A stretch of 64,000 nt of DNA from Streptomyces sp. B1I3 (GTDB lineage Bacteria > Actinomycetota > Actinomycetes > Streptomycetales > Streptomycetaceae), in NCBI RefSeq assembly GCF_030816615.1, contig NZ_JAUSYD010000001.1, positions 1,984,001 through 2,048,000 on the forward strand, read 5' to 3'. Under the pieces are notes generated by a model. That model searched no databases and had not been told where the DNA came from. It saw only the letters and a list, made by a program, of their open reading frames with translations. Each line of letters begins with the position of its first letter. Positions within the stretch are counted from its first letter, which is position 1. Shown piece after piece: positions 4,618 through 36,778 of the stretch. The translations under genes were made by a program, and so were the position numbers.

Positions 4618-5117
4618 GAGCGTGCTCCTCGATGCGTCGGTCCTCGATGCGTCGGCCGACGGGGCACTCCTGGTCCTCGGACCGAGGAGTCGCGGCGGGT
4701 CCGCCGGCTACCTCGCGGGATCGATCGCGCTGTACCTCACCACCCGGTCCACCATCCCGGTCGTCCTCGTAGGAGCAGGAGAACTGGGCGAAGACGCGCA
4801 CCAGTTGGACGCGGAGAGCCGCAGCTCGACGGAGACCCCGTACCGGAACATCGTGCTCGGGGGGATCGACCTGGCACACCCTGCGACGAGGCCGTCGCCT
4901 TCGAGTCGGCCCGGCCACGAAACGCCCCCTGCCTGTCCTCCATGGCTACTGCTCCTCGCCGATCGCGGCGGCGGTATCCGGGGCCGTGGTCGACTCCGAG
5001 GTGGCCGCGGAGCACGAGGCGGGCGCGACCGGCTCCGGTCACGACCGCGCACCGGGCCTGTGACCCAGGCTGCCGTGCATCACGCCCGGTGCCCGGCAGC
5101 CGTGGTGCCACATGCCC
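4618..5117 (+). pseudogene. Universal stress protein remnant, truncated and frameshifted
   Basis: The first readable part (LLDASADGALLVLGPRSRGG... then LTTRSTIPVVLV) is the end of a UspA domain, including a degenerate ATP-binding loop. It continues to IVLGGIDLAHP, the start of a second UspA domain. There the frame breaks: the expected continuation PCDEAVAFESARPRNAPCL reads in another frame. The very end (AVHHARCPAAVVPHA) again matches a Usp C-terminus. The N-terminal half of domain 1 and the start codon are missing, and much of domain 2 is scrambled. Compare the intact two-domain Usp at 6517-7386, whose corresponding pieces are QPCDAVLEFAF and VAVVPHA. This is a decayed paralogue. Confidence 0.75.
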
Positions 5118-5244
5118 GAACCGGCCGTCGGCGTCTTACCGACCTACGGAGTACCGCGCTCCGCGGGCTCCCGCCCGGCGCGGACCGCACACGATCCGCT
5201 CCACCGAAAGGGACCGGGTCCGGACCACACCGACCGGAGAGGGG

Positions 5245-5293
5245 GGCGAGCCGGTTGGGGGCCACCCTTCGGCCGTCTCCCAACCGGCTCGCC
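5245..5293. terminator. Stem-loop, 15-bp perfect stem
   Basis: The arm ggcgagccggttggg (5245-5259) pairs perfectly with cccaaccggctcgcc (5279-5293) across a 19-nt loop. It lies between the universal-stress remnant and the DoxX gene. No T-tract follows, as is usual in Streptomyces, so it may be a terminator for the decayed gene or a structured leader of the DoxX transcript. Confidence 0.55.
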
Positions 5294-5410
5294 AAGCAGG
5301 GACCTTCGGCACCGTTCGAGGACCGACAGGACCGGTGCCAGCGCCTGCCCCGGCGGACAGCCTGGACGGGCACACGCATTCACGCGTGGCATGAGCGAGG
5401 GCGAGAAACC

Positions 5411-6043
5411 ATGGCGCTGCAACAGAACCCCCGCCCCGTCACAGGGACCCACTCCTCTGCCTCACACAGAGGCACGGCGGAGCGAGCGGCCGCCGGCGGA
5501 ACGGCCCCCCGCGACGAAACGACCGGCATCACTCTCCTGCGTACCGCCGCTGTGCTCCGCATCCTCACTGCGTTCACCTTCCTGTGGGCGTTCTTCGACA
5601 AGGCTTTCGGCTGGGGCTACGCGACCGGATCCGGTAAGGGGTGGGTGGACGGCGGCTCACCGACCATGGGCTTCCTGAGCGGCGTCTCGGCCGGACCGAT
5701 GGAGAGCACCTTCCATGCCTGGGCCGGCGACACCTGGGCGGACTGGGCCTTCATGCTGGGACTGCTGGGCATCGGCGGGGCGCTGCTGGGCGGGATCGCG
5801 CTACGGCCTGCCGCACTCGCCGGCACGGCCATGATGGCGCTGATGTGGGCGGCGGAATGGCCTCCGGCCCGGCACCTGTCCGACGGTTCGCCCAGCATGT
5901 CGACGAATCCGATCATCGACTACCACGTGCTCTACGCCGCCGTCCTCGTCCTGCTCGCCGTGGCACTCGCCGGGCGCGCCTGGGGCCTGGGCCAGGCATG
6001 GGCTCGCCTCCCCCTCGTACGCGAGAACCGCTGGCTCCTCTGA
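5411..6043 (+). CDS. DoxX-family integral membrane protein
   Basis: A 210-aa membrane protein. After a roughly 45-residue hydrophilic, Thr/Ala-rich N-terminus come four hydrophobic segments: LLRTAAVLRILTAFTFLWAF with the following FDKAFGWGYA; FMLGLLGIGGALLGGIALR; LAGTAMMALMWAAEW; and HVLYAAVLVLLAVALAG. The pattern and the FDK motif after helix 1 match the DoxX/thiosulfate:quinone oxidoreductase large-subunit-like family. Members are linked to quinone redox balance and oxidative stress, but for this one the substrate is unknown. The ATG at 5411 follows gagggcgagaaacc. A hairpin at 5245-5293 lies in its upstream region. Confidence 0.85.
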   Translation: MALQQNPRPVTGTHSSASHRGTAERAAAGGTAPRDETTGITLLRTAAVLRILTAFTFLWAFFDKAFGWGYATGSGKGWVDGGSPTMGFLSGVSAGPMESTFHAWAGDTWADWAFMLGLLGIGGALLGGIALRPAALAGTAMMALMWAAEWPPARHLSDGSPSMSTNPIIDYHVLYAAVLVLLAVALAGRAWGLGQAWARLPLVRENRWLL

Positions 6044-6129
6044 GCCGATGCCGACGCCTGCCGTCAGCGCCCCCGGGGTCCTCGCGTCACCACCTCGTTC
6101 GCGTGTCCGCTCGGGGCCGTCCGCGTCCG

Positions 6130-6412
6130 CCCACCCTGCAGGACGCGACAGCCGTCGTATGCGACACCGACGGCGTCATCACCGACTCCGCCGGAATCCA
6201 CGCGGGAAGCGGCGCGCAGGCTCACGACCCCCGTCGAGCGCATCGCCGTGATCGAGGATGCCCTGGGGATCGAGGCAGGGCATCGCGGCGGTTTCGGCCT
6301 CGTAGTCGGTGTGGACCGCACCGCGGGCCCGGGCACCGACGGCGCGCTACTGCACCACGGCGCCGACCTCGTGGTCAGGGGCCTGGCCGAGTTGACCGGC
6401 AGTGACAGCCGG
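6130..6412 (+). pseudogene. HAD hydrolase (beta-phosphoglucomutase-like) remnant with internal deletion
   Basis: Two short blocks of one HAD-superfamily protein remain. The first, AVVCDTDGVITDSAGIHA (around 6150-6205), is HAD motif I, equivalent to the usual FDTDGVxTDS, with the nucleophile Asp. The second, in another frame (around 6235-6410), reads IAVIEDALGIEAGHRGGFGL then VVGVDRT and HGADLVVRGLAELTG; this is HAD motif IV (ED) plus the C-terminal strand. About 150 residues that normally separate them (cap domain, motifs II and III) are gone. Such enzymes often sit beside trehalose or maltose phosphorylases; none is here. Confidence 0.75.
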
Positions 6413-6516
6413 GGCCGTTCGGGGGCGTCCATGGGACCAACGGCCCCTGCTGAGCGGCCTCATGGCCGAGGGAGAGTGGGGGCATCCCGTAAACGACCCC
6501 TCAACAGGAGGCTTGC

Positions 6517-7386
6517 ATGCCCTGTACCGTGACCGCAGGCGCCGACAATTCGCGCGAGAGTCTGGCGGCAGTGGAATGGGCCGCCGGTGAGGCATCGCTG
6601 CGAGGGCTGCCGCTTCGGCTGCTCCACGTCCGGGAAGCCTCACCGGCGATGAGCGCCTCGCTCGCCGGATCCGCGAGGGCCGATTGGCCCTACGGCAGTC
6701 CGCAGTTGGCGGTCGAGGCCCTCCGAGCTCGCCATCCGCGCCTCGAAGTGGCAACCGACGACGTTCTCGGCAAGCCGGCCGATGTCCTCTGCACGGCGGC
6801 GAAGGACCAGGAACTCCTCGTACTCGGCTCGCGAGGGCTTGGCCGGCTTACGGGCTTCCTCCTCGGCTCCGTCTCGCTGGCGGTCATCGCCCGCAGCACC
6901 ACACCGGTCGTCCTCGTGCGTGCGGAGGACACTTCGTCCGCACGGGAGTGGCAGACGTCCGGCGACGTCGTCGTCGGTGTGGACACCTCCCAGCCGTGCG
7001 ACGCCGTGCTGGAGTTCGCTTTCGCCCACGCGGAGCGGCACGGTATCGCGTTGCGGGCGCTGCACAGCTGGCGGCTGCCGCCCTTGTACACCGGCGATCC
7101 GACAGGAGCGATGCTGACAGTCCGGACCGAACTGGACACGTTGACGAACGAGTCCCTGACGGACGCTCTCGCGCCCTGGCGGGAGAAGTTCCCCACCGTC
7201 CGCGTCACCGAGCGATGCCGGCCGGGCCAACCCGCACACGACCTCGTGGAAGCATCGCACGATGCCGGTCTTCTCGTCGTGGGCCGCAGGGAGCGCGGGT
7301 CGGCCCCCGGCATCCACATCGGTTCCGTCGCGCACGCGGTGCTGCACCACTCCAAGACGGCGGTCGCCGTAGTACCTCACGCCTGA
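6517..7386 (+). CDS. Universal stress protein, two UspA domains
   Basis: A 289-aa tandem UspA protein, a cytoplasmic nucleotide-binding stress protein. Domain 1 (about residues 1-140) starts MPCTVTAGADNSRESLAAVEWA and carries a complete G-x2-G-x9-G-S ATP loop (GSRGLGRLTGFLLGS). Domain 2 (about 147-289) starts VVVGVDTSQPC and ends VAVVPHA; its loop GRRERGSAPGIHIGS has Glu at the second Gly position, so nucleotide binding there may be weaker. The ribosome site aacaggaggctTGC is strong, 6 nt before the ATG. In Streptomyces and mycobacteria, Usp genes of this type are commonly controlled by DevR/OsdR-type regulators; such a regulator lies 3 kb downstream. Confidence 0.92.
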   Translation: MPCTVTAGADNSRESLAAVEWAAGEASLRGLPLRLLHVREASPAMSASLAGSARADWPYGSPQLAVEALRARHPRLEVATDDVLGKPADVLCTAAKDQELLVLGSRGLGRLTGFLLGSVSLAVIARSTTPVVLVRAEDTSSAREWQTSGDVVVGVDTSQPCDAVLEFAFAHAERHGIALRALHSWRLPPLYTGDPTGAMLTVRTELDTLTNESLTDALAPWREKFPTVRVTERCRPGQPAHDLVEASHDAGLLVVGRRERGSAPGIHIGSVAHAVLHHSKTAVAVVPHA

Positions 7387-7505
7387 CCAGGCGCCATCTC
7401 GCGCGAACCCGAACGGCCGACGCCAACTCGAATGCCGCACGGGGAAGATACATCGCTCCACCTCACCGAAGCAGCGCCTCATGCCAACGAAAGGCAGGCT
7501 GCCCC

Positions 7506-8234
7506 ATGCCGCACACATCAGCACTCGGTCCCCCCTCCACCGCGTCCCACCTCCGGCAAGGAGACCTGGGCCGACGCCTCACCATGCGTCGAGAGCAACT
7601 CGGACTCTCTCACCAGGAAGTCGCAGCGCGATGCCGCTCGGCGGCCGGGTACATCAGCTACTTGGAAGAACAACCGGTCACCTCACCGAGCGCCGGGTTC
7701 ATGATCTGCCTCGCCAACGCACTGGAGACAACGGTGGCCGAACTGACGGGAGGCAGCGCCGCCCTCCCGCCGGGAAGGGGGAGGGCGGCCCACCATCCGC
7801 AGTTCACCGAGCTGGGTGCCGGAGAGTGCCGTCGGCTGCTGGGCACGCACGGCGTCGGGCGGGTGGGCATCTCCACACCCGAAGGGCCCCTCATCCTGCC
7901 GGTCAACTACACCTTCCTGGAAAGCGCGATCGCCTTCCGCACAGCCCCGAACGCCCCACCCGCGGCAGCCGCGGGAAACCGGATCGCCTTCGAGGTGGAC
8001 CGCATGGACGACGCCCTCAGCCAGGGCTGGAGCGTCCTACTGGTGGGCGTGGCACGAGCGGTCACCGACATCGTCCAGGTCAGTCTGCTCGACGAGAAGG
8101 CGCTCTCCCTGCCGTGGGCAGGCGGCGACCGCAGCCTGTGGATCACGGTCGTGCCCACCCGGATCACCGGCCGCCGGATCGCTGCGCGCGACACCCATTT
8201 CTCGTCCACCGTCACGGCGCCCGAACTGCAGTGA
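7506..8234 (+). CDS. XRE-type HTH / pyridoxamine 5'-phosphate oxidase-like fusion protein
   Basis: A 242-aa protein. Residues about 17-75 form a helix-turn-helix XRE domain (LGRRLTMRREQLGLSHQEVAAR, then GYISYLEE). Residues about 100-235 form a split-barrel flavin-binding PPOX-like domain (CRRLLGTHGVGRVGISTPEGP, then LPVNYTF and IAFEVDRMDDALSQGWSVLLVG). Proteins of this architecture are common in actinobacteria. They are thought to be flavin-linked oxidoreductases or redox-responsive regulators; the substrate is unknown. The ATG at 7506 (MPHTSALGPPST) follows gaaaggcaggctgcccc, and is preferred over long in-frame extensions that overlap the Usp gene. It is convergent with the sensor kinase at 8354-10075. 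Confidence 0.85.
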   Translation: MPHTSALGPPSTASHLRQGDLGRRLTMRREQLGLSHQEVAARCRSAAGYISYLEEQPVTSPSAGFMICLANALETTVAELTGGSAALPPGRGRAAHHPQFTELGAGECRRLLGTHGVGRVGISTPEGPLILPVNYTFLESAIAFRTAPNAPPAAAAGNRIAFEVDRMDDALSQGWSVLLVGVARAVTDIVQVSLLDEKALSLPWAGGDRSLWITVVPTRITGRRIAARDTHFSSTVTAPELQ

Positions 8235-8353
8235 CCGGCTCACATATCGGGCCGTGGTGGAGCGCAGGACGTGCCCGGACATCTGGCACACGCTGGTCAC
8301 CCGCCTGCCGCCGGTCCGCTCCTCCTCGAGGGGGCGGGACGGGACTCCGGTCC

Positions 8354-10075
8354 CTAACATCCCAGCGCGGGAACACGCCACACCAGGAGTGTTCCGCCCC
8401 CCTCCGGTGAGGACAGCTCCATTGTGCCGCCGCATTCTTCGGCACGGTCCGTCAGGTTCCGCAGGCCGCTGCGGCGGCTGCCCGCGCCGATTCCGACGCC
8501 GTTGTCGGCGACGGTCAGGGTCACCTGACGGCCGTCGGTCTGAAGGATGACGTCCACCCGCGTCGCATGTGCGTGGCGGGCGACGTTCGTCAGGCTCTCA
8601 CCGAGGACGGCCAGGACATGGTCGGCGACGGGCCGGGAGACCTGCGTGTCGAGCAGGCCCTCCTTGCGCAGAGACGGCGAGAAGCCGAGGGCCGCGGCCG
8701 CGCCGGCGACGGCCCGCACGGTACGGGCCCGCAGACTCTCGCCATCTCCGCTCACGTCCGATCGGAGACCGAAGATCGTGGATCGGATGATCTTGATGGT
8801 TTCGTCCAGGTCGTCGACCGCGCGCTCCACCCGTTCCGACGCCTCGGGATGGTCGATGAAGCGCCCGGCACTCTGCAACGTCATCCCCGTCGCGAACAGC
8901 CGTTGAATCGCCAGGTCGTGCAGGTCCCGGGCGATACGGTCACGTTCCTCCAGGAGCACCATCTGCTCGGCGTCCCTACGACGTTCGGCCAGCTCCATGG
9001 CCACAGCGGCCGTACCGGCGAAACCGAGGACGGGGCTGGTCTCCTCGGCGGTGAAGGGCTCACTCCCCTCGGTGCGGACAAGCAGCAGAACACCGCGTAC
9101 TCCGGTGCCGGTGCCGATGGGGACCGCCACGGCCGGCCCGAGATCGACCGGCCAGGCCGGGTCTGCCGCGACCCACAGGGCGTCCGCGTCCTCACTGGTG
9201 ACTGCTACGGCCCGGGCGAACGCCTTACCGATCAATCCGCCGGTCATCACGGGGCGCGGGCCTTGGAAGGTTTCGGCCTCCAGCCCGCTGGCCAGTTCCA
9301 CGACGAAGTAATCCCGCTCGGCCGTGGGCAACGCCACCACGACCAGGTCCGCACCGGCGATCTCACGCGCCCGGTCGGCGATGAGAGCGAGCACCGCGGC
9401 GCGCGGGCTCCCGGAGAGCAGACTGTGCGTGACCTCGGCCGTCGCCTGAACCCACAATTCCCTCTGCTGTGACCTCTCGTACAGACGAGCATTGTCGATG
9501 GCCACCCCGGCCGCCACGGCGAGCGTGGTCAGGATCGACTCGTCCTCGGCATCGAACTGGGCGCCGCCCAGCTTCTCTGTGAGGTACAGGTTGCCGAATA
9601 CCTGGCCGCGTATCCGGATCGGCACTCCCAGAAAGCTGTCCATCGGGGGATGACCCGCGGGAAATCCGTACGAGGATTCGTGCTCCGAGAGCTTCCCCAG
9701 ACGGAGGGGTTCAGGGTGCGCGATCAGCTCGCCAAGAATGCCGTGGCCCGACGGCGACGACCCGATCGAGGCGACATCCTCGTCGTCCATACCGACGGTC
9801 AGGAACTGGACGAGTTTCTCGTGATCGGGTCCGATGACACCGAGCGCGCCGTACCGCGCCCGGACCAACGTCGTAGCCGCCTTCACCACGTGCCGCAGTA
9901 CCTGTTCCAGATCCAGGTCGCGGCCGACGGACATCACCACTTCCATCAGGTCCTGGACCCGGTCACGGGTGCTGTGCGCCGCGTCCAGCCGATGCTGTAG
10001 GAGGGCGAGTCGCTCCGCGCAGTCCTTCAGGTCATCCTGCGTGCAGCCGTCCTGGGTGTGCGACACCGAAAACAC
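8354..10075 (-). CDS. DevS/DosS-like sensor histidine kinase with two GAF domains
   Basis: A 573-aa kinase. It has two GAF domains (about residues 45-195 and 210-360), then a HisKA_3 dimerisation/phosphoacceptor helix with the motif RIARDLHDLAIQRLF (phospho-His in RDLHD), and a HATPase_c domain at the C-terminus (GESLTNVARHAHA, then VADNGVGIG and SGLRNLTDRAEE). This architecture matches DevS/DosS of mycobacteria and OsdK of Streptomyces, which sense oxygen, NO or redox state through GAF-bound haem. I cannot confirm a haem ligand by reading alone. The partner regulator lies 122 bp upstream on the same strand at 10198-10917, so the two probably form an operon with the regulator first. Confidence 0.92.
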   Translation of the reverse strand: MFSVSHTQDGCTQDDLKDCAERLALLQHRLDAAHSTRDRVQDLMEVVMSVGRDLDLEQVLRHVVKAATTLVRARYGALGVIGPDHEKLVQFLTVGMDDEDVASIGSSPSGHGILGELIAHPEPLRLGKLSEHESSYGFPAGHPPMDSFLGVPIRIRGQVFGNLYLTEKLGGAQFDAEDESILTTLAVAAGVAIDNARLYERSQQRELWVQATAEVTHSLLSGSPRAAVLALIADRAREIAGADLVVVALPTAERDYFVVELASGLEAETFQGPRPVMTGGLIGKAFARAVAVTSEDADALWVAADPAWPVDLGPAVAVPIGTGTGVRGVLLLVRTEGSEPFTAEETSPVLGFAGTAAVAMELAERRRDAEQMVLLEERDRIARDLHDLAIQRLFATGMTLQSAGRFIDHPEASERVERAVDDLDETIKIIRSTIFGLRSDVSGDGESLRARTVRAVAGAAAALGFSPSLRKEGLLDTQVSRPVADHVLAVLGESLTNVARHAHATRVDVILQTDGRQVTLTVADNGVGIGAGSRRSGLRNLTDRAEECGGTMELSSPEGGGTLLVWRVPALGC

Positions 10076-11790: not shown

Positions 11791-12106
11791 CGATGGGCGG
11801 TCTCTACGACGAGCCGAGCGGAGCGTCATCAGGGCCCTTCGATCCCGCAAGGCATCGGCTGAGCGCCAGTACTGCCATATAGATGCGAAAGACGCCCGTC
11901 AGCAGTGGGAGTCCCCCCTGGAACTTTTCTGGGACTTCCATGCTCATCAACCGGCACGAGCGTGAGAGAGCCGAAAGGTCATTCGCGCCGGCCAGCGTCC
12001 ATCACACGCCCATCACAGCAGGTCACCGCCTACGGCGCCCCCATCGGTGGCCACGCTGCGAATGCTCAAGGAAACGTACCCCCCGGAACAACCGAGGCGC
12101 TTTGCG
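11791..12106. other. Intergenic region, no feature seen
   Basis: About 315 bp with irregular, stop-rich frames and lower GC3 than the neighbours. It may hold the lost 5' part of the fragment at 11280-11790, but nothing is recognisable. Confidence 0.3.
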
Positions 12107-12676
12107 TCATGACCAGACGAGTCGCCCTTCGTCGACCTCGCAGACCGGATGGTTTCCCTCGGCGATCCTCGTCAGCATCTCCGCCACGGAGTCGAAATAG
12201 TGAGCCAGTGATTCGTACTCGCCCGTTTTCGTGATCTCACCCACGAACCAACTGCCGATACGCCCGTCCCGCGCGTCGATGAACATTCCCGTCCAGCCGT
12301 CCAGGTCCGACAGGAACGGGATCCACTCATTACGCCAGAACGGATTATCCGGCTGGTCCGGAGGGTCGAATCCACCGGGCCTGGAGCGGTTCGCATAGAG
12401 GTTCTCCATCGCCCGGATGCCCAGAAAGAAGCTGCCCTCATCGGGGAACCCGGCGAAGCCGCAACATGCCACGTCGTCGTCCACATCTTCCTCAGGGCGA
12501 TCCAGATTGTTCTGCAGCAGCCACGCCCGCAGATCCTGAGGGAGGGGGATACCCATCCTTTTCTCGGCGGCCGCGAGCATCTGTTCCGTAGCGGGCCCAG
12601 GCAGATCCGCGTGTTCGGCCGGGGCGTGCTGCTCAAGGAGACTCATCACGCGGGACCAGCTTTTCCCCACAGTCAT
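12107..12676 (-). CDS. SMI1/KNR4 (SUKH) family protein, orphan immunity-type
   Basis: A 189-aa cytoplasmic protein. The SUKH-fold signature is visible: an N-terminal helical segment with ATEQMLAAAEKRMGIPLPQDL then RAWLLQNN, and acidic/aromatic strands (FLSDLDGWTGMFIDARDGRIG, with the preceding WIPF). SUKH proteins act as immunity proteins that bind toxin domains in polymorphic toxin and contact-dependent systems, or as general adaptor proteins. No toxin gene, Rhs repeat or WXG100 gene is near, so the partner is unknown. The ATG at 12676 (MTVGKSWSRV) is preceded closely by ggagagggga; a longer form with about 10 more residues is possible. Confidence 0.8.
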   Translation of the reverse strand: MTVGKSWSRVMSLLEQHAPAEHADLPGPATEQMLAAAEKRMGIPLPQDLRAWLLQNNLDRPEEDVDDDVACCGFAGFPDEGSFFLGIRAMENLYANRSRPGGFDPPDQPDNPFWRNEWIPFLSDLDGWTGMFIDARDGRIGSWFVGEITKTGEYESLAHYFDSVAEMLTRIAEGNHPVCEVDEGRLVWS

Positions 12677-13036
12677 TCCCCTCTCCCCTCTGCGCGGATG
12701 CCTCATACGACTGCGCCACTGCGGGGACTACCGTTCGAAGGGTCGATGCCGGGCGCCGTAGTCCCGAAGCGTGTGCACAAAAGCCATGTTGGTGGGCGCC
12801 GACCGGAAAACCTCGCACGGATGGTACTCCGAGCAAGCCTCCCGCCCCACCCCACGCCCACGCCCACGCCCACGCCCACAACCATTTGGCACCTTCCGGC
12901 CCGAAGTGCAGGACCGGCCGCTCGGCGAGGCGACCGCCCGCCAACTCCTCCCGGACACGGCCGCTGTTCCTCGGCGGACCCGGCCGAGAAACCTGCGCGC
13001 ATGCGGGCACCGCCGTCCCGTGAGCATGGTGGGCAG
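12677..13036. other. Intergenic region with short tandem repeat
   Basis: Divergent intergenic space between the SMI1 gene and the SRPBCC gene. It holds the hexamer repeat described separately and presumably both promoters. No gene-like frame stands out. Confidence 0.4.
12851..12880. repeat. Tandem hexamer repeat (CCCACG) about 5 copies
   Basis: Five nearly perfect copies of cccacg run head to tail in the divergent intergenic region between the SMI1-family gene and the SRPBCC gene. Short tandem repeats of this kind are prone to slippage and could alter promoter spacing. Confidence 0.85.
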
Positions 13037-13420
13037 GTGAGAAGAACGGTGCGCGCCGTGGGCGCGGCAAGCGCGGAGACGGTCTGGCAGCGGTACGTAC
13101 GGACGGCGGCCTGGCCCCTGTGGGCTCCGCAGATCCGGGCCGTGGAGGCGGAGGCCGAGCTGCGAGCGGGCATGCGCGGCCGGGTGGTGCCCGTGGTGGG
13201 GCCACGCGTCGCCTTCGTCGTCGAGGCCGTCGACCATCAGGCCCGCACCTGGCGGTGGCGGGTCCGGGCGGGCCCGGTTCGGATGCGCCTGTGGCACGCC
13301 GTCCGGACCCGCACCCCGGCTGCCACGGAGACCGAGCTGTGCATCGACGGCCCCACCCTGGTCGTGGTGGCGTACGCGCCGCTGGCCCGGCGCGCGCTAC
13401 GCCGTCTGGTCCACGACTGA
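13037..13420 (+). CDS. SRPBCC-family protein, small
   Basis: A protein of about 127 aa with the START/Bet v1-like (SRPBCC) pattern: an N-terminal segment SAETVWQRYVRTAAWPLWAP in which W and P mark helix 1, followed by alternating beta strands (GRVVPVVGPRVAFVVEAVD, RTWRWRVRAGPVRMRLWHAV, TELCIDGPTLVVVAYAPLA). Such proteins bind hydrophobic ligands in a deep pocket; the ligand is unknown. I chose GTG 13037 (VRRTVRAVGAASAE); an in-frame GTG at 13049 is also possible. A perfect GC palindrome at 13487-13514 follows and may be its terminator. Confidence 0.7.
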   Translation: MRRTVRAVGAASAETVWQRYVRTAAWPLWAPQIRAVEAEAELRAGMRGRVVPVVGPRVAFVVEAVDHQARTWRWRVRAGPVRMRLWHAVRTRTPAATETELCIDGPTLVVVAYAPLARRALRRLVHD

Positions 13421-13486
13421 GACGACGGCATCACCCTTGGGAGGGATCTCCCTGGGATCTCGTAGGGGCTTCTCCCGGGCCTCTTC

Positions 13487-13514
13487 CCCCGGGCCTCCGG
13501 CCGGAGGCCCGGGG
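13487..13514. terminator. Perfect 28-bp GC palindrome
   Basis: ccccgggcctccgg is followed immediately by its exact reverse complement, giving 14+14 bp with no spacer. Located 66 bp after the SRPBCC stop and 166 bp before the hemerythrin gene. As RNA it would fold into a very stable hairpin, so it is probably a transcription terminator; it could also be a protein-binding palindrome. Confidence 0.6.
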
Positions 13515-13680
13515 CGGGCAGGAAGGCGCCGAAGGTCCTTCCTGCCGATCGGATCCACGTCCCTCCTGACGACCGCACGACGTGGCGGGATCCCGAGCTC
13601 CGTCGGCCCCGGCCTGACCGTCCTCGCTTGTTTGCGCCTCCCTGGGGTAGCAGCGGTACACCGTACGAGGAGAGGAGCTT

Positions 13681-14178
13681 GTGGTGTCCGAAGCGCGTGA
13701 CGTGGTGGCCGTGATTCTCGAGGACCATCGCACCATGGAGGAGCAGCTGCGGAGGATGCGGAGTGTCGAGGAGGACCGGGAGGCAGCTCTCCGGGACTTC
13801 GCCGCGCTTCTGATCGCCCACGGGGAGGCGGAGGAGGCCGAGGTGTACCCCGCGCTCAAGCGGTTCCGGAACGTGGACAACGAGGAAGTCGAGCACGGGG
13901 AGGAGGAGCACCATGAGGGCAACGAGGCGCTCCTCGCCCTCATGGAAGTGGACGAGGTCGGCTCCGACGAGTGGGACGAGAAGCTGGAGGAGCTCGCGAC
14001 GGCCGTCACGCACCACATCGACGAGGAGGAACGCACGATCCTCAACGGCGCCCGGGAGAACGTGCCGGACGCGCGCCGCGCCGAACTCGGTGCGGTCTTC
14101 CTCCGCGACCGGGAGAAGCACCTGCGGGCCGACTGCGGGAGCATCGACAGTGTCCGCGCGGTCGTCCGGGCGCACTGA
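13681..14178 (+). CDS. Hemerythrin (HHE) domain protein
   Basis: A 165-aa four-helix protein with the histidine/acid pattern of a di-iron hemerythrin site: EDHRTMEEQLRRM near residue 15, a LIAHGEAEEAEVYPAL block with His and Glu spaced as ligands, EHGEEEHHEGNEALLAL, and THHIDEEERTIL. Actinobacterial members bind O2 or NO, or store iron, and some protect against oxidative or nitrosative stress. The GTG at 13681 (V/MVSEARDVV) follows gaggagaggagctt, an excellent ribosome site. A GTG at 13684 is equally close. The gene fits the stress theme around it and ends before a clear terminator hairpin at 14235-14269. Confidence 0.92.
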   Translation: MVSEARDVVAVILEDHRTMEEQLRRMRSVEEDREAALRDFAALLIAHGEAEEAEVYPALKRFRNVDNEEVEHGEEEHHEGNEALLALMEVDEVGSDEWDEKLEELATAVTHHIDEEERTILNGARENVPDARRAELGAVFLRDREKHLRADCGSIDSVRAVVRAH

Positions 14179-14194
14179 ATCCACAGTCACGTAC

Positions 14195-14227
14195 GTCACA
14201 GCAGGTCACAGCTGTATAGGTCACAGC
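14195..14227. repeat. Three direct copies of GTCACAGC
   Basis: GTCACAGC occurs at 14195-14202, 14205-14212 and 14220-14227, just after the hemerythrin stop and before its terminator hairpin. Spacings of 10 and 15 bp place the first two about one helical turn apart. Role unknown. Confidence 0.6.
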
Positions 14228-14234
14228 AGCGACG

Positions 14235-14269
14235 CGGGCACCCATCCGGACATGCCGGACGGGTGCCCG
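14235..14269 (+). terminator. Terminator hairpin after the hemerythrin gene
   Basis: cgggcaccc (14235-14243) pairs with gggtgcccg (14261-14269), and inside this tccgg pairs with ccgga around the loop acatg, with a single A/C mismatch between the two stem parts. A 14-bp GC-rich stem is typical of Streptomyces intrinsic terminators without a U-tract. Confidence 0.7.
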
Positions 14270-14408
14270 TCGGCTGACCCCCGGCCTTCCGTCGGTGCCC
14301 GCCGGGGGAGCCCCGGCCGAGGAGGAACAGCACGCAGCCGGCCGGCCGGACCGAGGTCCCCGGGACCGCTCGGCTCCTGCTCACGCTCCCCGTGCCGTCA
14401 GCCTGCAT

Positions 14409-14448
14409 TGACGCGTGTTGACTTCCGCGCCTAGTGCAGATTCACTAG
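14409..14448 (+). promoter_or_regulatory. Possible promoter with operator-like palindrome before the STAS operon
   Basis: Two TTGAC elements (14409-14413 and 14418-14422) lie upstream of an inverted repeat CTAGTG-N6-CACTAG (14431-14448). A third CTAGTG occurs near 14478. TTGACG with a 17-nt gap to TAGTGC is a plausible housekeeping-type promoter, and the palindrome overlapping the -10 region would suit a repressor or activator site. Start of transcription is inferred only. Confidence 0.35.
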
Positions 14449-14571
14449 ACCGACACTGATGTCCTCGCACTACGAGGCTAGTGATGCGGAAGCTGGCAAC
14501 GAGGGGCCCCTCCACGGAAAGGGGCCGCGGAACCGTACTGCCCGGACACGGCAGTACGTGAGCACGGAGAG

Positions 14572-29103: not shown

Positions 29104-31941
29104 TCAGGCGACCGCCAGCAGCGCCCCCAAGGCCCCGGCCGTCCCGGGGTGGCGTGCGACGAGCACCGCGCCGCCCGGCGGCGGAGCGGCGGCCTCCTCC
29201 CACGTGCCGTCGCAGCCCAGCAGCTGCGCGACGCTGTCGCACGTCGCCGGGTGGGCGGCGAGCAGCACGGCACGGCGGCCCGGGCCGCCACCGGCCACCG
29301 GCGGGGCGGCCGGAGTTTCCGGGGCGGCCTGCCACGGGGGAACCCAGGTGTCCAGCGCCGCGAGCCGGCCGGGGAAGATGCGCCCCGCCTCCCGGATCAG
29401 CAGTGGTGCCAGGTCCGCGCCGTCGGAGCGCAGGGTGCCGATGAGGGTCGGCAGCCACGGCAGCAGTACCGGGTCGGGCAGCCGCGCGAAGGCGTTCGAC
29501 ACGGCCTCCACGACGAAGTCGGCCAGTTGCGGCACCGGCTCGAGCGCGTGCAGGAAGCCGCTGAGGTAACGCGGATAGGCCGGCACCGCCAGGGGATCGG
29601 CCAGCAGCGCGTCACACCGGTCCCGGAGGCCGGCCCGGGAGAGCTGCCCGAGCTGCACCTGAGCCGCCCACAGCAGCGCCCTCCGCGACGGATCCCGCGG
29701 ATGCGACTGTGCGAAGGCCAGCTCCAGCTGCGTACGGTCGCAGCCGAGCGACAGCGCCAGGTTCTCCATGCTGAACAGGAACCCGAGCATGGCCGCCACC
29801 TGCCGGACGGTGGCGTCCTCGTCGGTGAACGCCGTCGGCAGCAGGGTGCAGTAGTGCGCGTACCCCGTCTTGGCGAAGGACTCGATCCACGCGGGCAGCG
29901 CCGGCCGGCTGATCCGGTAGTGGGCCAGCAGCCGGCGCACCCGCCTCAGCACCTCCGGCGCACCGTCGACGCTGCGCTCGGTGGCCAGCACCTCCAGGGC
30001 ACGGGTGCCGAGTTCGTCGGCGAGGCGGTCGCTGCGCAGGTGGAGGACCGCGTCCTCGACGGCTTCCAGGACGGTGGCGGCTGTGGCGTTCGCGGCGTAC
30101 GCCGTGCGGCGCAGGCGCTGCTCCAGGACCTGCTCGATGCTGACGCCCTCGTAGCCGAGTTCGATCAGCGCCCGCTGGTGGGTGCCCAGGGCGAGGTCCC
30201 AGGACTCCTGGATCGACCGTTTGCCGAGCCCCCGCTCGCCCATGATCGGCCGGGCCGCACCGTGCGGCATCAGGTGGCGCAGCATCCACAGGACGTCGGA
30301 CACCTGCTCGAGCTCCGGCCGGGAGGCCATGTCCAGCAACGCGCGCCGCACGCCGCGCTGCTGGAGCTTGAGGTTCAGCGGGGCCAGCCGGTCGTGCACG
30401 TCGCGGGCCAGGGGCGGCAGGGCGTCGTACCCGACCTGGCCGACCCGGTCGCCGCCCATGAGGATCTCCACGAGGCGGCGCACGTCGCGCCGGCCGGGCA
30501 CGGTCTCCTTCTCGATGCAGGTGACCGCGGCGTCCTGGAAGTCGTACGGGGTGGGCTTGGCCCGGTCCCGCATCCCGGCGAGCAGGATCGACGTCTCGAA
30601 GACGGCGATGGCGTCGGCGGTGGAGGCGAGGTAGTTGTTCCGGCGTGCGGAGCGCACGATCTCCACCGACCAGCCGAGCAGTTCCGCCTCGTCCAGGCGG
30701 TCGAGGGCGGGCGGGCTCTGCAGGAATCCGGAGAGCTTGTCCGGGAGCGTGTCCCCCACGGCGGTGGGTGCCGCGGCCGATGCGGTCCTGCGGGGCCCGG
30801 CCGCCTTCTTGGCGCCGGCCTGGCCCGCGAGCCGGAACGGCTGCACCCGGGTGCGCCTGAGGTTCTTCGACCACTGGGTGGCAGCGATCGACACGGAGCC
30901 CGCGGCGAGGCCGAACTGTGCCTCGATCGCCGTGTGGCTGGACGGGATCAGGCCGTGCTGCCAGGTGCTCCCGCTCGGCGGGGTGATCTCGAAGGTGTCG
31001 CTGCCGTGGACACCGAACTCCGGGACACGGCTGGACGCGTGGAACGCGCCGCAGACGTAGAGGCAGTCCTCCGGATCGGTGCCGGACGCGGCGAGGTGTG
31101 CCCGCATCCGGGTCCACATGTGGCGCTCGCGGTCCTCGTCCGCCCTGACCCGGTCCCGGTCGCCGGGTGCCAGCCGGCGGAACAGGCTGCCGATCAGCAG
31201 CATGACCTGCCGGTAGGTGTCGTGGTCGCTGTCGCCGAGCGGCAGCTCGACGTACTGGTGCCACCACTCGGACCAGTGCCGCACCTTGCCGTGGTTCAGC
31301 AGGTGTTCCTCCAGCTCGGCGAAGCGGGGCCGCAGGTCGCCGATCTCCACGCCGACCGCGTCGCCGTGCAGGGCCGCCTCCTCGTCGGCCGGCGGTGCGT
31401 CCGGGCCGGCGGGCCCGGCGGCCGGTGTGCCGCCCGCCCGCCACTGGAACACATGGTCCGAGGAGCGGTCGACGAGGACGAGCTCGACGTCCGGTGTGTC
31501 CAGTGCGTAGGCGATGGCCTGGTACTCGGCGGACGCCTCGGTGATCGGTGCGACGACCGACAGCGGCGCCCATTCGGCGGGAAAGCCCTTGACCTCGCTC
31601 GCGAACGCCTGCACGGCCACCGGGAGCCTGCAGTTGCGCAGCTCGGACAGGAGCGGCGCCATGTCCTCGCACAGTTCGAGGTAGACGACCTTCGGCTGCT
31701 TCTCGCGCAGCCGCCGTGCCATCGCGACGGCCGAGGCCGGCGAGTGGTGGCAGACGGGGAAGATCTCGAGCGGTTCGCGCACTGCCCGGTCGACGTCGTC
31801 GACGATGCCGAGGAGGATGCCCTCCAGCGCGTCTGGCCCGTCGGCGAACTCGGTGGCAGCCTGCTGCAACTGGCCGCGCAGCGCCTCGAAGCTCGTCGCC
31901 GCGCCCACGGACTTCCCGGGGTCCACGGAGTGCGGGCTCAC
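29104..31941 (-). CDS. DUF5682-type protein with TraB/TIKI-like N-terminal domain (MoxR operon)
   Basis: A 945-aa protein, last gene of the five-gene MoxR/VWA operon. Residues 60-320 show a motif series that I read as TraB/TIKI-like: HHSPAS (65-70), a following helix and strand ending in YLELCED (87-93), LVDRSSDH (156-163), ADEDRERHM (267-275) and CGAFHASS (297-304). In TraB/PrgY and TIKI proteins equivalent GxxH, VELC, DRD, ERDxxM and GAGH motifs line a putative metal site. The remaining 600 residues are helical repeats without a recognised motif. Family membership as DUF5682 is from memory of actinobacterial gene clusters; the enzymatic reading is inference. It corresponds in position to yehM in E. 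coli. Starts at GTG 31941, overlapping the MoxR stop (GTGA). Confidence 0.8.
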   Translation of the reverse strand: MSPHSVDPGKSVGAATSFEALRGQLQQAATEFADGPDALEGILLGIVDDVDRAVREPLEIFPVCHHSPASAVAMARRLREKQPKVVYLELCEDMAPLLSELRNCRLPVAVQAFASEVKGFPAEWAPLSVVAPITEASAEYQAIAYALDTPDVELVLVDRSSDHVFQWRAGGTPAAGPAGPDAPPADEEAALHGDAVGVEIGDLRPRFAELEEHLLNHGKVRHWSEWWHQYVELPLGDSDHDTYRQVMLLIGSLFRRLAPGDRDRVRADEDRERHMWTRMRAHLAASGTDPEDCLYVCGAFHASSRVPEFGVHGSDTFEITPPSGSTWQHGLIPSSHTAIEAQFGLAAGSVSIAATQWSKNLRRTRVQPFRLAGQAGAKKAAGPRRTASAAAPTAVGDTLPDKLSGFLQSPPALDRLDEAELLGWSVEIVRSARRNNYLASTADAIAVFETSILLAGMRDRAKPTPYDFQDAAVTCIEKETVPGRRDVRRLVEILMGGDRVGQVGYDALPPLARDVHDRLAPLNLKLQQRGVRRALLDMASRPELEQVSDVLWMLRHLMPHGAARPIMGERGLGKRSIQESWDLALGTHQRALIELGYEGVSIEQVLEQRLRRTAYAANATAATVLEAVEDAVLHLRSDRLADELGTRALEVLATERSVDGAPEVLRRVRRLLAHYRISRPALPAWIESFAKTGYAHYCTLLPTAFTDEDATVRQVAAMLGFLFSMENLALSLGCDRTQLELAFAQSHPRDPSRRALLWAAQVQLGQLSRAGLRDRCDALLADPLAVPAYPRYLSGFLHALEPVPQLADFVVEAVSNAFARLPDPVLLPWLPTLIGTLRSDGADLAPLLIREAGRIFPGRLAALDTWVPPWQAAPETPAAPPVAGGGPGRRAVLLAAHPATCDSVAQLLGCDGTWEEAAAPPPGGAVLVARHPGTAGALGALLAVA

Positions 31942-33050
31942 GACAGGGTGGCGATCGCGTCGCGGCCGCCCTCCAGGAACTCCGGCCAGGAGCCGCCCTC
32001 TTCCCTGCTGCGCGGTTCGACGACGCCGTGCAGGTACTTGTTGAGGATGGCGAGGTCCTCGGGTTCGCGGCGCGCCAGCGAACCGACGAGCGAGGAGGCG
32101 AGCGTGCGGGCCGTCAGCTCCCGTTCTCCGAAGAAGTTGCTGTGCAGGATGGCGTCCTCGAGCACGCCGATCTGCTCGGCGCTGGACAGCGCGGACTCCA
32201 GCTTCTCGTCGTCGCTGCCTGCCGCGGCCGAGGAGGCGCGCAGGTCGGCGAAGCTCTGCAGCAGCACGTCCAGCAGGGTCGGCGGCACGTCCAGCTCGAT
32301 GCGGTGGCGGCGCAGCAGCTCCTCGGTGCGGAAGCGGACGATCTCCGCCTCGCTCTTCTTGTTCGTCACGACGGGGATGCGGACGAAGTTGAAGCGGCGC
32401 TTGAGCGCGGACGAGAGGTCGTTGACTCCCCGGTCGCGGCTGTTGGCCGTGGCGATGACGGAGAACCCGGGCTTGGCGAAGACGATGTTGTCGCTGTCCA
32501 TCTCCGGGACCGAGATGTACTTCTCCGACAGGATCGAGATCAGTGCGTCCTGGACGTCGCTGGTGGAGCGGGTGAGCTCCTCGAAGCGGCCGATCGCGCC
32601 GGTCTCCATGGCGGTCATGATCGGCGAGGGGATCATCGACTCACGCGACTGGCCCTTGGAGATCACCATGGACACGTTCCACGAGTACTTGATGTGGTCC
32701 TCGGTGGTGCCGGCCGTGCCCTGCACCACCAGGGTGGAGTTGCGGGAGATCGCGGCGGACAGCAGTTCCGCCAGCCAGCTCTTGCCCGTCCCCGGGTCAC
32801 CGATCAGCAGCAGGCCGCGGTCGGAGGCCAGGGTGACGATGGAACGCTCGACGAAGCTGCGGTCCCCGTACCACTTCTGGGGGATCTCCCGGTCGAGGCC
32901 GTCGGAGCGCTCGGACCCCAGGACGAACAGCCGGACCATCTTCGGCGACAGGCGCCAGGAGAACGGCTTGGGGCCGTCGTCGACCGACTCGAGCCAGTCC
33001 AGCTCTTCGGCGTACTTGATCTCGGCGGGGGCGCGCAACAGGCCGGACAT
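31938..33050 (-). CDS. MoxR-type AAA+ ATPase, YehL-like
   Basis: A 370-aa AAA+ ATPase. Walker A is GDPGTGKS (residues 84-91). The Walker B region reads GAIGRFEEL, with Glu-Glu in place of the usual Asp-Glu. Sensor 1 is VIATANSRDRGVND and an Arg-finger region ALKRRFNFVRIP follows. MoxR ATPases work with VWA proteins as chaperones that insert cofactors or remodel complexes; CobS/CobT and RavA/ViaA are examples. The ATG at 33050 (MSGLLRAPAEIK) is preferred because gagagaggcaccgat stands just before it; an in-frame ATG at 33071 lacks a ribosome site. It lies 50 bp downstream of the VWA gene and overlaps the DUF5682-type gene. Confidence 0.92.
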   Translation of the reverse strand: MSGLLRAPAEIKYAEELDWLESVDDGPKPFSWRLSPKMVRLFVLGSERSDGLDREIPQKWYGDRSFVERSIVTLASDRGLLLIGDPGTGKSWLAELLSAAISRNSTLVVQGTAGTTEDHIKYSWNVSMVISKGQSRESMIPSPIMTAMETGAIGRFEELTRSTSDVQDALISILSEKYISVPEMDSDNIVFAKPGFSVIATANSRDRGVNDLSSALKRRFNFVRIPVVTNKKSEAEIVRFRTEELLRRHRIELDVPPTLLDVLLQSFADLRASSAAAGSDDEKLESALSSAEQIGVLEDAILHSNFFGERELTARTLASSLVGSLARREPEDLAILNKYLHGVVEPRSREEGGSWPEFLEGGRDAIATLS

Positions 33051-33100
33051 ATCGGTGCCTCTCTCAGTCATGGATGCGGTGCGGGTTCCGGAGGAAGACG

Positions 33101-34522
33101 TCAGGTGAGAAATGTCTTGAGCTCGTGGACGAGCTTGCGAATGTGGCCGGAGAGCACCGGGGTCCCCTGGTCCTTGAAGCGCTCCCGGAACCACGGGTTG
33201 ACGCTTGCGCGGCCGGAGCTGGTCACCGAGCCGACCGGGATGAACTTGGCCCCTGAGCGGTGGATGGCGGCCATGCTCTCGAAGAGCGGCTCGCTCTGCC
33301 ATTCGTAGAAGTCCGAGATCCACACCACGGCGGTGTTGCGGGGTTCGGCGATCTTCGGCTGGGCCAGGGCCATGGCGACCGTGCCGTCGGTGCCGCCTCC
33401 GAGGTTGGTGCGCAGCAGGGTCTCGAAGGGGTCGTGCACCCACGGCGTGAGGTCGAGGGCCTGGGTGTCGTACGCGATCAGGTGGACGTCGACCTTGGGC
33501 AGGCCCGCGAAGATGGAGGCCAGGATGGTGCAGTTGACCATGGAGTCGACCATGGAGCCGGACTGGTCGACGACCACGACCAGCCGCTGGGGCGTCGTCT
33601 TCCTGGCGGTGTGGCGGTAGAAGAGGCGGTCGACGTAGAGCCGTTCCTCCTCGGGGCTCCAGTTGGTGAGGTTCTTCCAGATCGTGCGGTCGAGGTCCAG
33701 ATTCCTGAACACCCGCTTCGGCGGGACCGACCGGTCCAGGGCTCCGACGCCCGACTTCTCCACCTGGGTCCGCAGTACCTCGGCGACCTCGTCGACGAAG
33801 CGGCGGATGAGGGCCTTGGCGTTGGCGAGGGCGACGCCGGACAGATTGTCCTTGTCACGCAGCAACTGTTCGATCAGCGACATGCTCGGGGTCAGCTGCC
33901 CGGCGAGCTTCGGGTCGGCCAGCACCTCGCGCAGACGCATCCGCCCGACGAGGTCGGCCTCGATGGAACCGAGCGCGGGACCGATCTCCGGGATCAGCCG
34001 GCCGAGGCCGGGTGTCCGGCCGCCACCGCCCGTGCCCGCCGGGCTGACGCCGGGGCGTGCCGCGCGGCCGCCGCGCAGCTCCCCCGGCGTGCAGCCGAGC
34101 GCGCGCTCCAGCCAGCCCGCGTCGGACTGCCAGCGCGACAGCTGTCCGGCGGTGACGGCACCCCGGCCCTGGTGGAAGACGTTGAGGAGGACCTTCGACA
34201 CGAGAGCGGCACGCCGTACTTCGGCGGCCCGGTCGCGGCTGTCGCCGCCGGCGTCGTGCGCGGTGTCCTCGTCCGGCACCATCAAGCCGTCGAACGCGGC
34301 GGCCAGTGCGGGGTGGCGTTGCACGACCGAGTCGACCGAGGCCTGCGGGTCCAGCAGCGCGGGCGGCAGCCCGATGTCCTCGACGACGGCGAGGCTCGCC
34401 GATTCGAGTGTGGCCTGCTCCTCGGGGTCGAAGAGCCGGGCGAGCAGGCGCCAGTACAGGACCTGCCGGCGGTTGTCGTGGGAGGTCGCGTGGGTCGCCT
34501 CGTGACCCTGCTGTCCGGTCAT
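33101..34522 (-). CDS. VWA-domain protein with intact MIDAS, YehP-like
   Basis: A 473-aa protein. The N-terminal 300 residues are mostly helical, with a Gly/Pro-rich linker near 150-172. The C-terminal von Willebrand A domain has a complete metal-ion-dependent adhesion site: DQSGSM (Asp319, Ser321, Ser323), Thr378 in LGGGTDG and Asp404 in WISDF. It should bind a divalent metal and a client or the adjacent MoxR ring. ATG 34522 (MTGQQGHEATHA) overlaps the stop of the upstream frameshifted gene (ATGA). Because of the extra base in that upstream gene, its original reading frame runs into this one without a stop, so a fused product is formally possible. Confidence 0.9.
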   Translation of the reverse strand: MTGQQGHEATHATSHDNRRQVLYWRLLARLFDPEEQATLESASLAVVEDIGLPPALLDPQASVDSVVQRHPALAAAFDGLMVPDEDTAHDAGGDSRDRAAEVRRAALVSKVLLNVFHQGRGAVTAGQLSRWQSDAGWLERALGCTPGELRGGRAARPGVSPAGTGGGGRTPGLGRLIPEIGPALGSIEADLVGRMRLREVLADPKLAGQLTPSMSLIEQLLRDKDNLSGVALANAKALIRRFVDEVAEVLRTQVEKSGVGALDRSVPPKRVFRNLDLDRTIWKNLTNWSPEEERLYVDRLFYRHTARKTTPQRLVVVVDQSGSMVDSMVNCTILASIFAGLPKVDVHLIAYDTQALDLTPWVHDPFETLLRTNLGGGTDGTVAMALAQPKIAEPRNTAVVWISDFYEWQSEPLFESMAAIHRSGAKFIPVGSVTSSGRASVNPWFRERFKDQGTPVLSGHIRKLVHELKTFLT

Positions 34523-35911
34523 TTCCGCAGCAGCTTTCCGGCGCGCTCGGCGAGCACCCGCACGGTGTCGGTGGCGGCCTTCTCCCCCTTGGCCCCGGCC
34601 TTGTCCGCCGTGCCTCCGGCCCACGCACCCGCGTGGACCGCGGCCACCTTCCTGCGCACCGTGGTCTCCACGGCGAGCGGCTGGACGGCGAACGTCCCGG
34701 CGTCCCAGCGGAGCAGGCCTATGCAGGCGTTCGACGTCGCGACCGCCCCCGGGGTCAGCGGACCCGCGACGGGAATGCGGTCGGTGTCGACGGCCAGCGC
34801 CGTGCCGGCGACGGTGAACGTCACCTCGTCGTCGTCCGTCCCGACGGAGTAGCCCTCCAGGAGGACCGGGACGGCGATGTGCGCCGGATGCCGGTCCAGC
34901 GGCGCGGTCGTGGGGCAGGCCGCGGTGGGCAGGGCCACGCGTGCGGTGACGAAGGCGTCGGCCGGCTCGCCCGGGCGTGCGTGCCCGTCGCTCCACACGA
35001 GATCGCCCCCCGGCGGTGACGGGCATGTCGGTGAGCTCCATCGAGCGGCCCTCACCGGCGGCCGTCAGAAGTGACATGTGCGGCCGGAGCAGCTGCCAGA
35101 CGCCGGCTCCGACGACCGTGTCGGGCTTGGGCGCCGACACACTTGCGCGTACGAGCCGGGGCGTGGAGCCGTCGGCGGGCTCGAACACGGCGTGCACCTG
35201 CGCCTGTGCGGCGGTCGCGTGCTCCTGTACGTCGACGCCGAGGGGCAGCAGGCGGCCGGTGGCCGTCCCGGTGGGGGGCCGGCCCGCCGCGCCGGGCACG
35301 GTCAGCAGCACCGCACGCGACCAGAGGTCGCCCCAGCGGCGCACCGGAACGCGTTCCAACGTGGCGCCGGGGCAGGACGCGGCCAGTTCGGCGGCGAAGC
35401 CGTCGAGGAGCGTCGCCAGGCGGCGCAGGGCGGGGTCGGGAAGCATCGCGGAGACGACCTCCGCCGCCCCGGAGACCACCTCGTGGTCGATGCCCTGCCA
35501 GCCGCAGCGTGCCAGGTCGGACAGCCAGGCGCGGGCGGCCGCGAGCAGATTCGCCGCCTGCGGTGGGGCTGCCGCTTCCGGTGCCCCGTCGTCGTGGGGC
35601 CGGCCGGTCGCCTCGTGGACGCGGGACAGCAGCGCGTCGTGGACGGAGCCGAGCAGTGCGGTACGGGCGGCGGCCAGGGCGACGAAGTGGTCCTCGCCCG
35701 CCGCCCCTGCCGCGGCCTTCTCGGCCGCTTCGGTGACCAGGGCGGCCAGCGGGGTCCCCGCGACAGCCTCGGCGAGTGCGGCCGGACCTGCGGCACCGCC
35801 GGCGCGGGGTCGCAGCAGCCCGGTGACGAGGGCGTCGTCGAAGGCGTCGACGACGGCGAGGGCGTCGTCGAGCCCGTCGACGGTCCCGGTCAGCAGGTCG
35901 GTGCGCATCAC
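34519..35911 (-). CDS. Uncharacterised protein of the MoxR/VWA operon, frameshifted at a G6 tract
   Basis: Length is 1393 nt, one more than a multiple of three; removing one base from the six-G run (six C on the plus strand, 35006-35011) gives a 463-aa protein. Before the run the frame reads ELTDMPVTAGG; after it the sensible frame reads DLVWSDGHARPGEPADAFV. The unshifted frame beyond the run is Arg/Pro/Gly-rich and noncoding in character until it enters the VWA gene. The protein is helical at the N-terminus, with RVPVRRWGDLWSRAVLL near residue 205 and beta-rich C-terminal segments (HIAVPVLLEGYSVGTDDDEV). I recognise no named domain; with the SWIM-like gene upstream it may match a split YehQ-type or DUF5691-type protein. 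It starts at GTG 35911 (ATG 35908 also possible). Confidence 0.7.
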
Positions 35912-36411
35912 GCCACCGCCCGGGTCGGCGGGAAGAAGTGCATCTCGGGCAACGGCGTCGTGGCGGGGGCGAGTTCCAGGTAGGCGAGGTGCCGCAGGAA
36001 CCGGCTGAAGACGGCTGCGGCGGCCTTGGCCGCGTCCGGCGAGGGCCGCGTGGCGGTCATGGCCCGGCGCAGCCGCTCCGCGTCACGCTCCTCTTGCGGG
36101 ACGTCGACCTTCAGGTAGCGGGCGACGCGCTCGGGGCCGTACTGCAGGACCGCCTGGTCGACCAGGGCCCCGATGTGGTTGCAGAACGATCCGCGCGCAC
36201 CGCCGCAGGGCCGGTTGTTGTTGGTGCTGCACGCGAACGCGTAGCTCCCGGCCGCGACGGACGACACGTACACCCGCCCGATGTCGGACCCGCTGGACAC
36301 CACTCCCTGCAGACGCCCGTCGGCCAGCTCGACGAACGGCACCTTGGCGAGCTTGCGCGGCCGTGCGGGTGGTACCACCCGCGCCGTGCTCGACCTCTCC
36401 CAGACCGACAA
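35908..36411 (-). CDS. SWIM-like zinc-finger protein, first gene of the MoxR/VWA operon
   Basis: A 167-aa protein. The core YAFACSTNNNRPCGGARGSFCNHIGAL-type segment has Cys, Cys and a terminal Cys-x-His pair, as in SWIM zinc fingers (CxCxnCxH) though the first pair is spaced differently. SWIM fingers bind DNA or protein. The C-terminal 60 residues are helical. Start is uncertain: TTG 36411 has ggagga 9 nt upstream, while a GTG about 12 codons later is also possible. Its stop overlaps the start of the next gene. SWIM proteins form part of the yehLMPQ-like gene set. At 167 aa it is much shorter than YehQ, which suggests that the usual protein is split here between this and the next gene. Confidence 0.75.
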   Translation of the reverse strand: MSVWERSSTARVVPPARPRKLAKVPFVELADGRLQGVVSSGSDIGRVYVSSVAAGSYAFACSTNNNRPCGGARGSFCNHIGALVDQAVLQYGPERVARYLKVDVPQEERDAERLRRAMTATRPSPDAAKAAAAVFSRFLRHLAYLELAPATTPLPEMHFFPPTRAVA

Positions 36412-36565: not shown

Positions 36566-36778
36566 TCAGTCGGGCAGCGGCACCCGGATGACGGGATCGA
36601 ACGGGCGCTTGTTGAACCCGGTGCGCAGGTTGCGGCACTCCGGCGCCTTGCACATGAAGAACTCCTCGACGGCCTTACGGCCCGTGCGGTCCTTGAGCCA
36701 CGCCTTCTCACCGGGGGTGAGCGACCGGTGTTCCTCGTCGGAATCGCAGGTGGAGCAGTACATAGGACGTGATGCCAT
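36566..36778 (-). CDS. Small zinc-ribbon-like protein
   Basis: A 70-aa protein with two Cys pairs (YCSTCDSDEEHRSL near residue 7 and MCKAPECRNLRTG near residue 46) that can form one zinc ribbon. The ATG at 36778 (MASRPMYCSTC) follows tcgggagatttc. I do not recognise the family. It sits 154 bp upstream of the MoxR/VWA operon on the same strand, so it may be co-transcribed or may be an independent gene. Confidence 0.65.
   Translation of the reverse strand: MASRPMYCSTCDSDEEHRSLTPGEKAWLKDRTGRKAVEEFFMCKAPECRNLRTGFNKRPFDPVIRVPLPD

Follow-up and report, generated by a model that had tools for sequence, protein, structure and literature searches.

A conserved five-gene MoxR/VWA operon of Actinomycetota with a predicted TraB/PrgY-like domain in its DUF5682 protein

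The window analyzed here is a stretch of 64,000 nucleotides from the genome of Streptomyces sp. B1I3 (7.5 Mb, single contig), and at positions 29104-36411 it carries an operon of five genes, all on the minus strand, which encode in order a cysteine-rich finger protein, a protein called X here, a VWA protein, a MoxR AAA+ ATPase and a large protein, M, related to the DUF5682 family. The operon is a conserved unit of five co-inherited, coupled genes. It can be read as a divergent branch of the MoxR/VWA systems of the YehL class, a subfamily among the seven into which MoxR proteins have been named (PMC3893208), in which remodelling by MoxR and VWA would serve a predicted TraB-like domain of M; we regard this reading as evenly poised between right and wrong. 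The new elements that the comparisons suggest are a TraB/PrgY-like domain in the N-terminus of DUF5682 and, in X, a family missing from Pfam. YehL-class systems span the range from E. coli to the actinobacteria, and the hypothesis that joins DUF5682 to TraB offers a first testable idea of what their job may be. A literature search, which covered few subscription journals, returned no paper naming DUF5682, no functional study of E. coli yehLMPQ and no paper that assigns YehL-class systems a client or function, in agreement with a preliminary description of the window, made from its letters, which held that no client or role is settled for systems of this class.

Conservation was assessed by scanning 84,980 species genomes with an alignment of X, which yielded at least 354 matching loci; the best 80 were analyzed, of which 77 are complete and 3 are truncated where their contig stops. 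The order and strand of the five genes are identical in all 77 complete loci, which come from other species, and in 14 of 14 Streptomyces loci, so that the proposal of a five-gene set withstood the comparison under which it could have failed, namely whether the genes co-occur in other genomes. The coordinates also bear out the overlaps claimed at three of the four junctions: the finger and X genes share an overlapping TGATG (35906-35910), X and VWA an ATGA (34519-34522), and MoxR and M a GTGA (31938-31941), the sole exception being the gap of 50 nucleotides between VWA and MoxR. These overlaps recur across the loci (finger/X in 75 of 80, X/VWA in 69 of 80, MoxR/M in 63 of 77), and the VWA/MoxR junction overlaps in none of 78. 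All five genes are under purifying selection, with median ratios of nonsynonymous to synonymous substitution rates (dN/dS) of 0.08-0.35. No flanking gene is widely shared among the 26 loci compared, which indicates that the five genes are the unit; a 70-residue zinc-ribbon-like gene upstream (36566-36778, minus strand) was considered as a sixth member and rejected, as it has no relative in 98 related loci.

In the samples examined the operon is confined to Actinomycetota and mostly to mycelial genera. The best 80 loci belong to Micromonospora, Salinispora, Actinomadura, Nonomuraea, Streptosporangium, Dactylosporangium, Nocardia, Streptomyces and others, and the copies most closely related to that of the window come from Streptomyces-like genomes within its genus. 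Its occurrence within the genus is patchy, since M is present in 15 of 61 genomes, and strong matches to M were found in only 6 of 396 genomes sampled across the phylum. Copies also occur on records of a plasmid collection, and no relative was found in viral contigs.

The assignment to the YehL class is carried by the fourth gene (31938-33050), whose product matches AAA_5 with 127 bits and is 40% identical to E. coli YehL (E 3e-82). In a maximum-likelihood tree which took in 17 operon-type MoxR proteins and YehL relatives, with RavA left out, the operon-type proteins form one clade with a support of 100/100 that is nested among the YehL relatives and adjoins the canonical actinobacterial YehL proteins, as expected from the class named in the preliminary description. 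The score against the Mg_chelatase family (ChlI/BchI) lies below the cut-off (14.1 versus 20.3 bits). The Walker B region (RFEE, 32577-32588) had been singled out as a deviation, but it is normal for YehL proteins: the same residues occur in E. coli (KIVRFEE), and the catalytic glutamate is retained. The genuine difference lies in the Walker A motif (GDPGTGKS, 32778-32801), which has GTGK where YehL and the canonical paralogues have GTAK within GxPGTAK[ST]. The product of the third gene (33101-34522) matches VWA_CoxE with 100 bits, against a cut-off of 26.4, and is a YehP homologue with 31% identity (E 2e-40); the metal ion-dependent adhesion site (MIDAS) attributed to it is indeed intact, with the pattern DQSGS...T...D, in which DQSGS occupies 33554-33568.

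The fifth gene (29104-31941) encodes M, a protein of 945 residues which by its sequence is a divergent DUF5682 protein. The window copy alone gives no Pfam match in hmmscan, but DUF5682 (PF18934), with a cut-off of 26 bits, is matched by three of ten orthologues at 99-106 bits, M aligns to E. coli YehM over 437 columns (E 2.8e-5), and RefSeq names the copy on a plasmid of S. fungicidicus a "DUF5682 family protein", so that the type proposed for the last protein of the operon stands. An alignment of the N-termini of operon-type M proteins, canonical DUF5682 proteins and YehM contains the motif GxxHH, a glutamate 24 residues past the first histidine, [SA]xE, [IV]D, RExxM and GxxH. Across a set of 11 proteins that extends from E. 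coli to the actinobacteria, H11, H12, E35, E83, D101, E176, G199 and H202 of YehM are invariant, and so are their counterparts in the window protein, H65, H66, E89, E139, D158, E272, G298 and H301, in 66 operon-type M proteins.

At the level of the family, the N-terminus of DUF5682 is well supported as a remote domain of the TraB/PrgY type, that is, of the Tiki superfamily, with conserved histidine and glutamate residues; in the window protein the predicted domain comprises about residues 55-340 (30922-31779). The support comes from a comparison of the N-terminal DUF5682 profile with four PrgY/TraB proteins of enterococcal plasmids, which gave a score of 38.6 (E 2e-4) with 245 columns in register, compared to at most 23.8 in 40 column-shuffles, 14.2 for the reversed profile and no more than 23.7 for 58 decoy sequences, either unrelated or reversed. 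The canonical DUF5682 set alone scored 38.0 (shuffles at most 22.5). This whole-domain alignment brings together in both families a GxxH motif, a glutamate 24 residues later, VDR[SD], an R[ED] helix motif and a second GxxH, and it pairs H11/E35 of YehM with H21/E45 of PrgY and H65/E89 of the window protein. Enzymes of the Tiki superfamily have a site of two histidines and two glutamates (PMC6254334). In the AlphaFold model of M (mean predicted local distance difference test, pLDDT, 77) an N-terminal domain of alternating strands and helices precedes a long C-terminus of predicted helical repeats, an addition which distinguishes M from the TraB/PrgY pheromone-shutdown proteins.

Several results weigh against extending this assignment to the window protein. 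The profile of operon-type M proteins alone scored 19.3-19.4 against PrgY, short of the 23.3 reached by shuffled controls; the TraB assignment is therefore one of the family, and the window protein takes it over as a homologue of other DUF5682 proteins. The first GxxH motif of operon-type M proteins, around H65-H66 (31744-31749), has lost the glycine found in other DUF5682 proteins (PVCH in the window), although the second, GAFH at residues 298-301 (31039-31050), is intact. A Foldseek search with the M model, in which the helical repeats dominate, returned only repeat proteins and no TraB or Tiki structure among the 50 matches listed, so that the TraB fold stands as a prediction. Relationships of DUF5682 to YbaP and to erythromycin esterase were tried and rejected, as the scores did not rise above those of decoys.

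The first two genes encode proteins that cannot be placed in Pfam. The product of the first (35908-36411), of 167 residues, had been called a SWIM finger, but the resemblance is one of motif only: the cysteines and histidine are spaced C61-x7-C69-x7-C77-x-H79, without the CxC pair of the SWIM motif CxCx(n)CxH, and neither the window copy nor three orthologues match the Pfam SWIM profile; the protein belongs to no Pfam family. The pattern itself is well kept, with C-x-TNNNRPCG...C-[KN]-H invariant and the arrangement of cysteines and histidine retained in the 80 loci. X (34519-35911) is evidently a well-conserved protein family, of about 464 residues, that is missing from Pfam, since over 80 members no Pfam match was obtained except for one stray weak one. 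RefSeq annotates these first two genes of the S. fungicidicus plasmid operon as "hypothetical", and a search of PDB sequences with profiles of M and X produced nothing relevant. The predicted model of X is confident (pLDDT 91.9, predicted template-modelling score 0.88), with residues 1-206 helical and the remaining half rich in beta strands. It has no significant match among PDB structures; the oligonucleotide/oligosaccharide-binding (OB) fold proteins RPA, SSB, PriB and RMI recur among the weak matches, and in a library of viral structures the five best matches are LEF-3 single-stranded DNA-binding proteins (probability 0.84-0.99, E 8e-4 to 8e-3). That the C-terminal half of X may be OB-like, and possibly binds nucleic acid, is a lead and not a result, and the low TM-scores of the fold matches (about 0.2) count against it. 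The finger protein and X probably act together, as is supported by natural fusions of the two in one open frame at loci L032 (8851-10776, minus strand) and L036 (4459-6402, plus strand), of 642 and 648 residues. The fusions and their total length prompted the idea that X is the missing C-terminal half of YehQ, which was rejected because profile comparison shows no similarity.

If the operon acts as proposed, the MoxR protein would form an ATP-driven ring, and the VWA protein would be its MIDAS adaptor and would dock the DUF5682 protein, a role assigned to it because a paralogous locus encodes DUF5682 and VWA as a single polypeptide. Because X and the finger protein occur fused, the two would constitute a module for recognition, and the putative OB-like fold of X suggests that what they recognize may be nucleic acid. 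ATP-driven remodelling might then hand the recognized target to the TraB-like hydrolase or peptidase domain, or switch that domain on. The fusions of DUF5682 with VWA, which support the view that these two proteins act together, are single open frames in loci L152 and L153, and they belong to another architecture found in the genus: in L181 (about 4557-9450) and L182 (about 4760-9940) a MoxR gene is followed by a large DUF5682-VWA fusion and then by a cysteine-rich open frame with CxC...CxH. If the TraB-like domain of DUF5682 is borne out, it would connect chaperones of the MoxR-VWA kind with a hydrolase fold known from peptide signalling. To our knowledge TraB/PrgY proteins have no link to AAA+ ATPases. 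The predicted TraB/Tiki-like domain makes the role addressable by mutagenesis of His11, Glu35 and His202 of yehM in E. coli K-12. The boldest extension of the proposal, and one that we consider very improbable, is that the operon encodes an ATP-dependent machine, hydrolase or protease, of a new class, in which targets selected by the finger and OB-like proteins through nucleic-acid sensing would be delivered by MoxR and VWA to the TraB/Tiki-type domain in a response of mycelial actinobacteria to stress or phage, with a simpler version in E. coli YehLMPQ.

Two other roles have to be weighed against this mechanism. The proteins could form a maturation chaperone like CoxDE or RavA-ViaA, engaged in metal insertion or the remodelling of a complex, with the DUF5682 protein as scaffold or client and its TraB-like domain a structural relic. 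The characterized MoxR proteins do mature dedicated complexes (PMC3893208), and the VWA protein is of the CoxE type; but the 26 loci compared reveal no conserved neighbour that could be an enzyme, cofactor or client gene, and the putative active-site histidine and glutamate residues are invariant from E. coli to the actinobacteria, which would not be expected of a relic, and we judge this explanation unlikely, if still deserving of attention. A role in conflict is rather unlikely in our estimation, although it concerns in part what the operon is for and can hold true alongside the mechanism proposed here: in mycelial bacteria the finger and OB-like proteins would sense nucleic acid, MoxR and VWA would license, and the TraB-like domain would kill or degrade, in phage defence or self-killing. 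Consistent with such a role are the patchiness of the operon in the genus, its presence on replicons of the plasmid collection, its lack of fixed neighbours and its mostly mycelial hosts. The operon also shares a MoxR and vWA core, a third large protein and multicellular hosts with the MoxR-vWA ternary conflict systems of multicellular prokaryotes, in which VMAP proteins often have N-terminal peptidase domains (PMC7159879). Those systems are, however, defined by a VMAP, iSTAND, FtsH or beta-propeller component, and scanning every gene against Pfam gave none of the four above its cut-off; the bpMoxR profile also falls far below its own (12.1 versus 27 bits). Moreover, PADLOC defence models give weak cross-matches only, the same five proteins recur with no swapping of effector domains between loci, and viral contigs yielded no relative.

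A further difficulty for the proposed mechanism, at least in this strain, is that gene 2 is frameshifted by one extra base, so that the five genes of the preliminary description are not all intact here. X is read in two parts (34993-35911, then 34519-35004) which meet near a run of six G (35006-35011) that has one G more than the GAGGG of relatives (GCCGAGGGCGA in relatives, GCCGGGGGGCGA in the window), and in each of the 14 Streptomyces relatives the gene forms a single frame, while the 80 further loci all carry it complete. The extra base may have arisen by slippage, by recent decay or as a homopolymer sequencing error; the system in the window strain may accordingly be dead or impaired, or the break may be such an error. 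That the frameshift is genuine and marks an operon in decay in the window strain seems to us to fall somewhat short of an even chance. The inserted base itself and the slightly higher dN/dS of gene 2 after the break (0.35, compared to 0.26 before it) speak for decay, but both halves and all the other genes still look constrained, so that any break must be recent, and an error in sequencing the homopolymer is no less possible.

The correspondence with E. coli yehLMPQ on which the preliminary description relied is thus borne out for YehL, YehP and YehM and is not supported for YehQ. Both systems are coupled operons with homologous MoxR, VWA and DUF5682 proteins and an RFEE Walker B motif. They differ in gene order (finger-X-VWA-MoxR-M in the window, L-M-P-Q in E. 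coli), in the Walker A motif, and in the DUF5682 protein, YehM having 759 residues. No YehQ is demonstrable in the window operon, and a correspondence of its first two genes to YehQ finds no support in profile similarity: X has no detectable relative among the E. coli yeh proteins, and an hhalign comparison of the finger protein with YehQ is at chance level except over a stretch of 12 residues that includes PCKH. The window strain also has, at 3.209-3.228 Mb (L010), a canonical yehL-M-P locus whose SWIM and DUF5691-region genes are divergent, and thus has two YehL-class systems. The two loci have the three core families in common; their MoxR proteins are 42% identical, the operon-type protein belongs to its own clade, and the accessory proteins are different.

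Some minor features of individual loci were also observed. One genome of the genus (G392; L060, L063) combines the five-gene operon with an E. coli-like yehL-M-P-Q locus, whose YehL is 63% identical. Relatives of YehI (DUF4132) adjoin loci of the E. coli yeh type in actinobacteria as well (L009, 5280-8912; L062, L063), which suggests a functional link. About 1.3 kb is inserted between MoxR and M in L086 (13854-15178), the sole locus with such a gap. On the S. fungicidicus plasmid (L174) the operon is flanked on one side by a gene for an N-6 DNA methylase (1276-2934) and on the other by a gene with a type IV secretion system DNA-binding domain (12082-14493), an arrangement that did not emerge as a general pattern.

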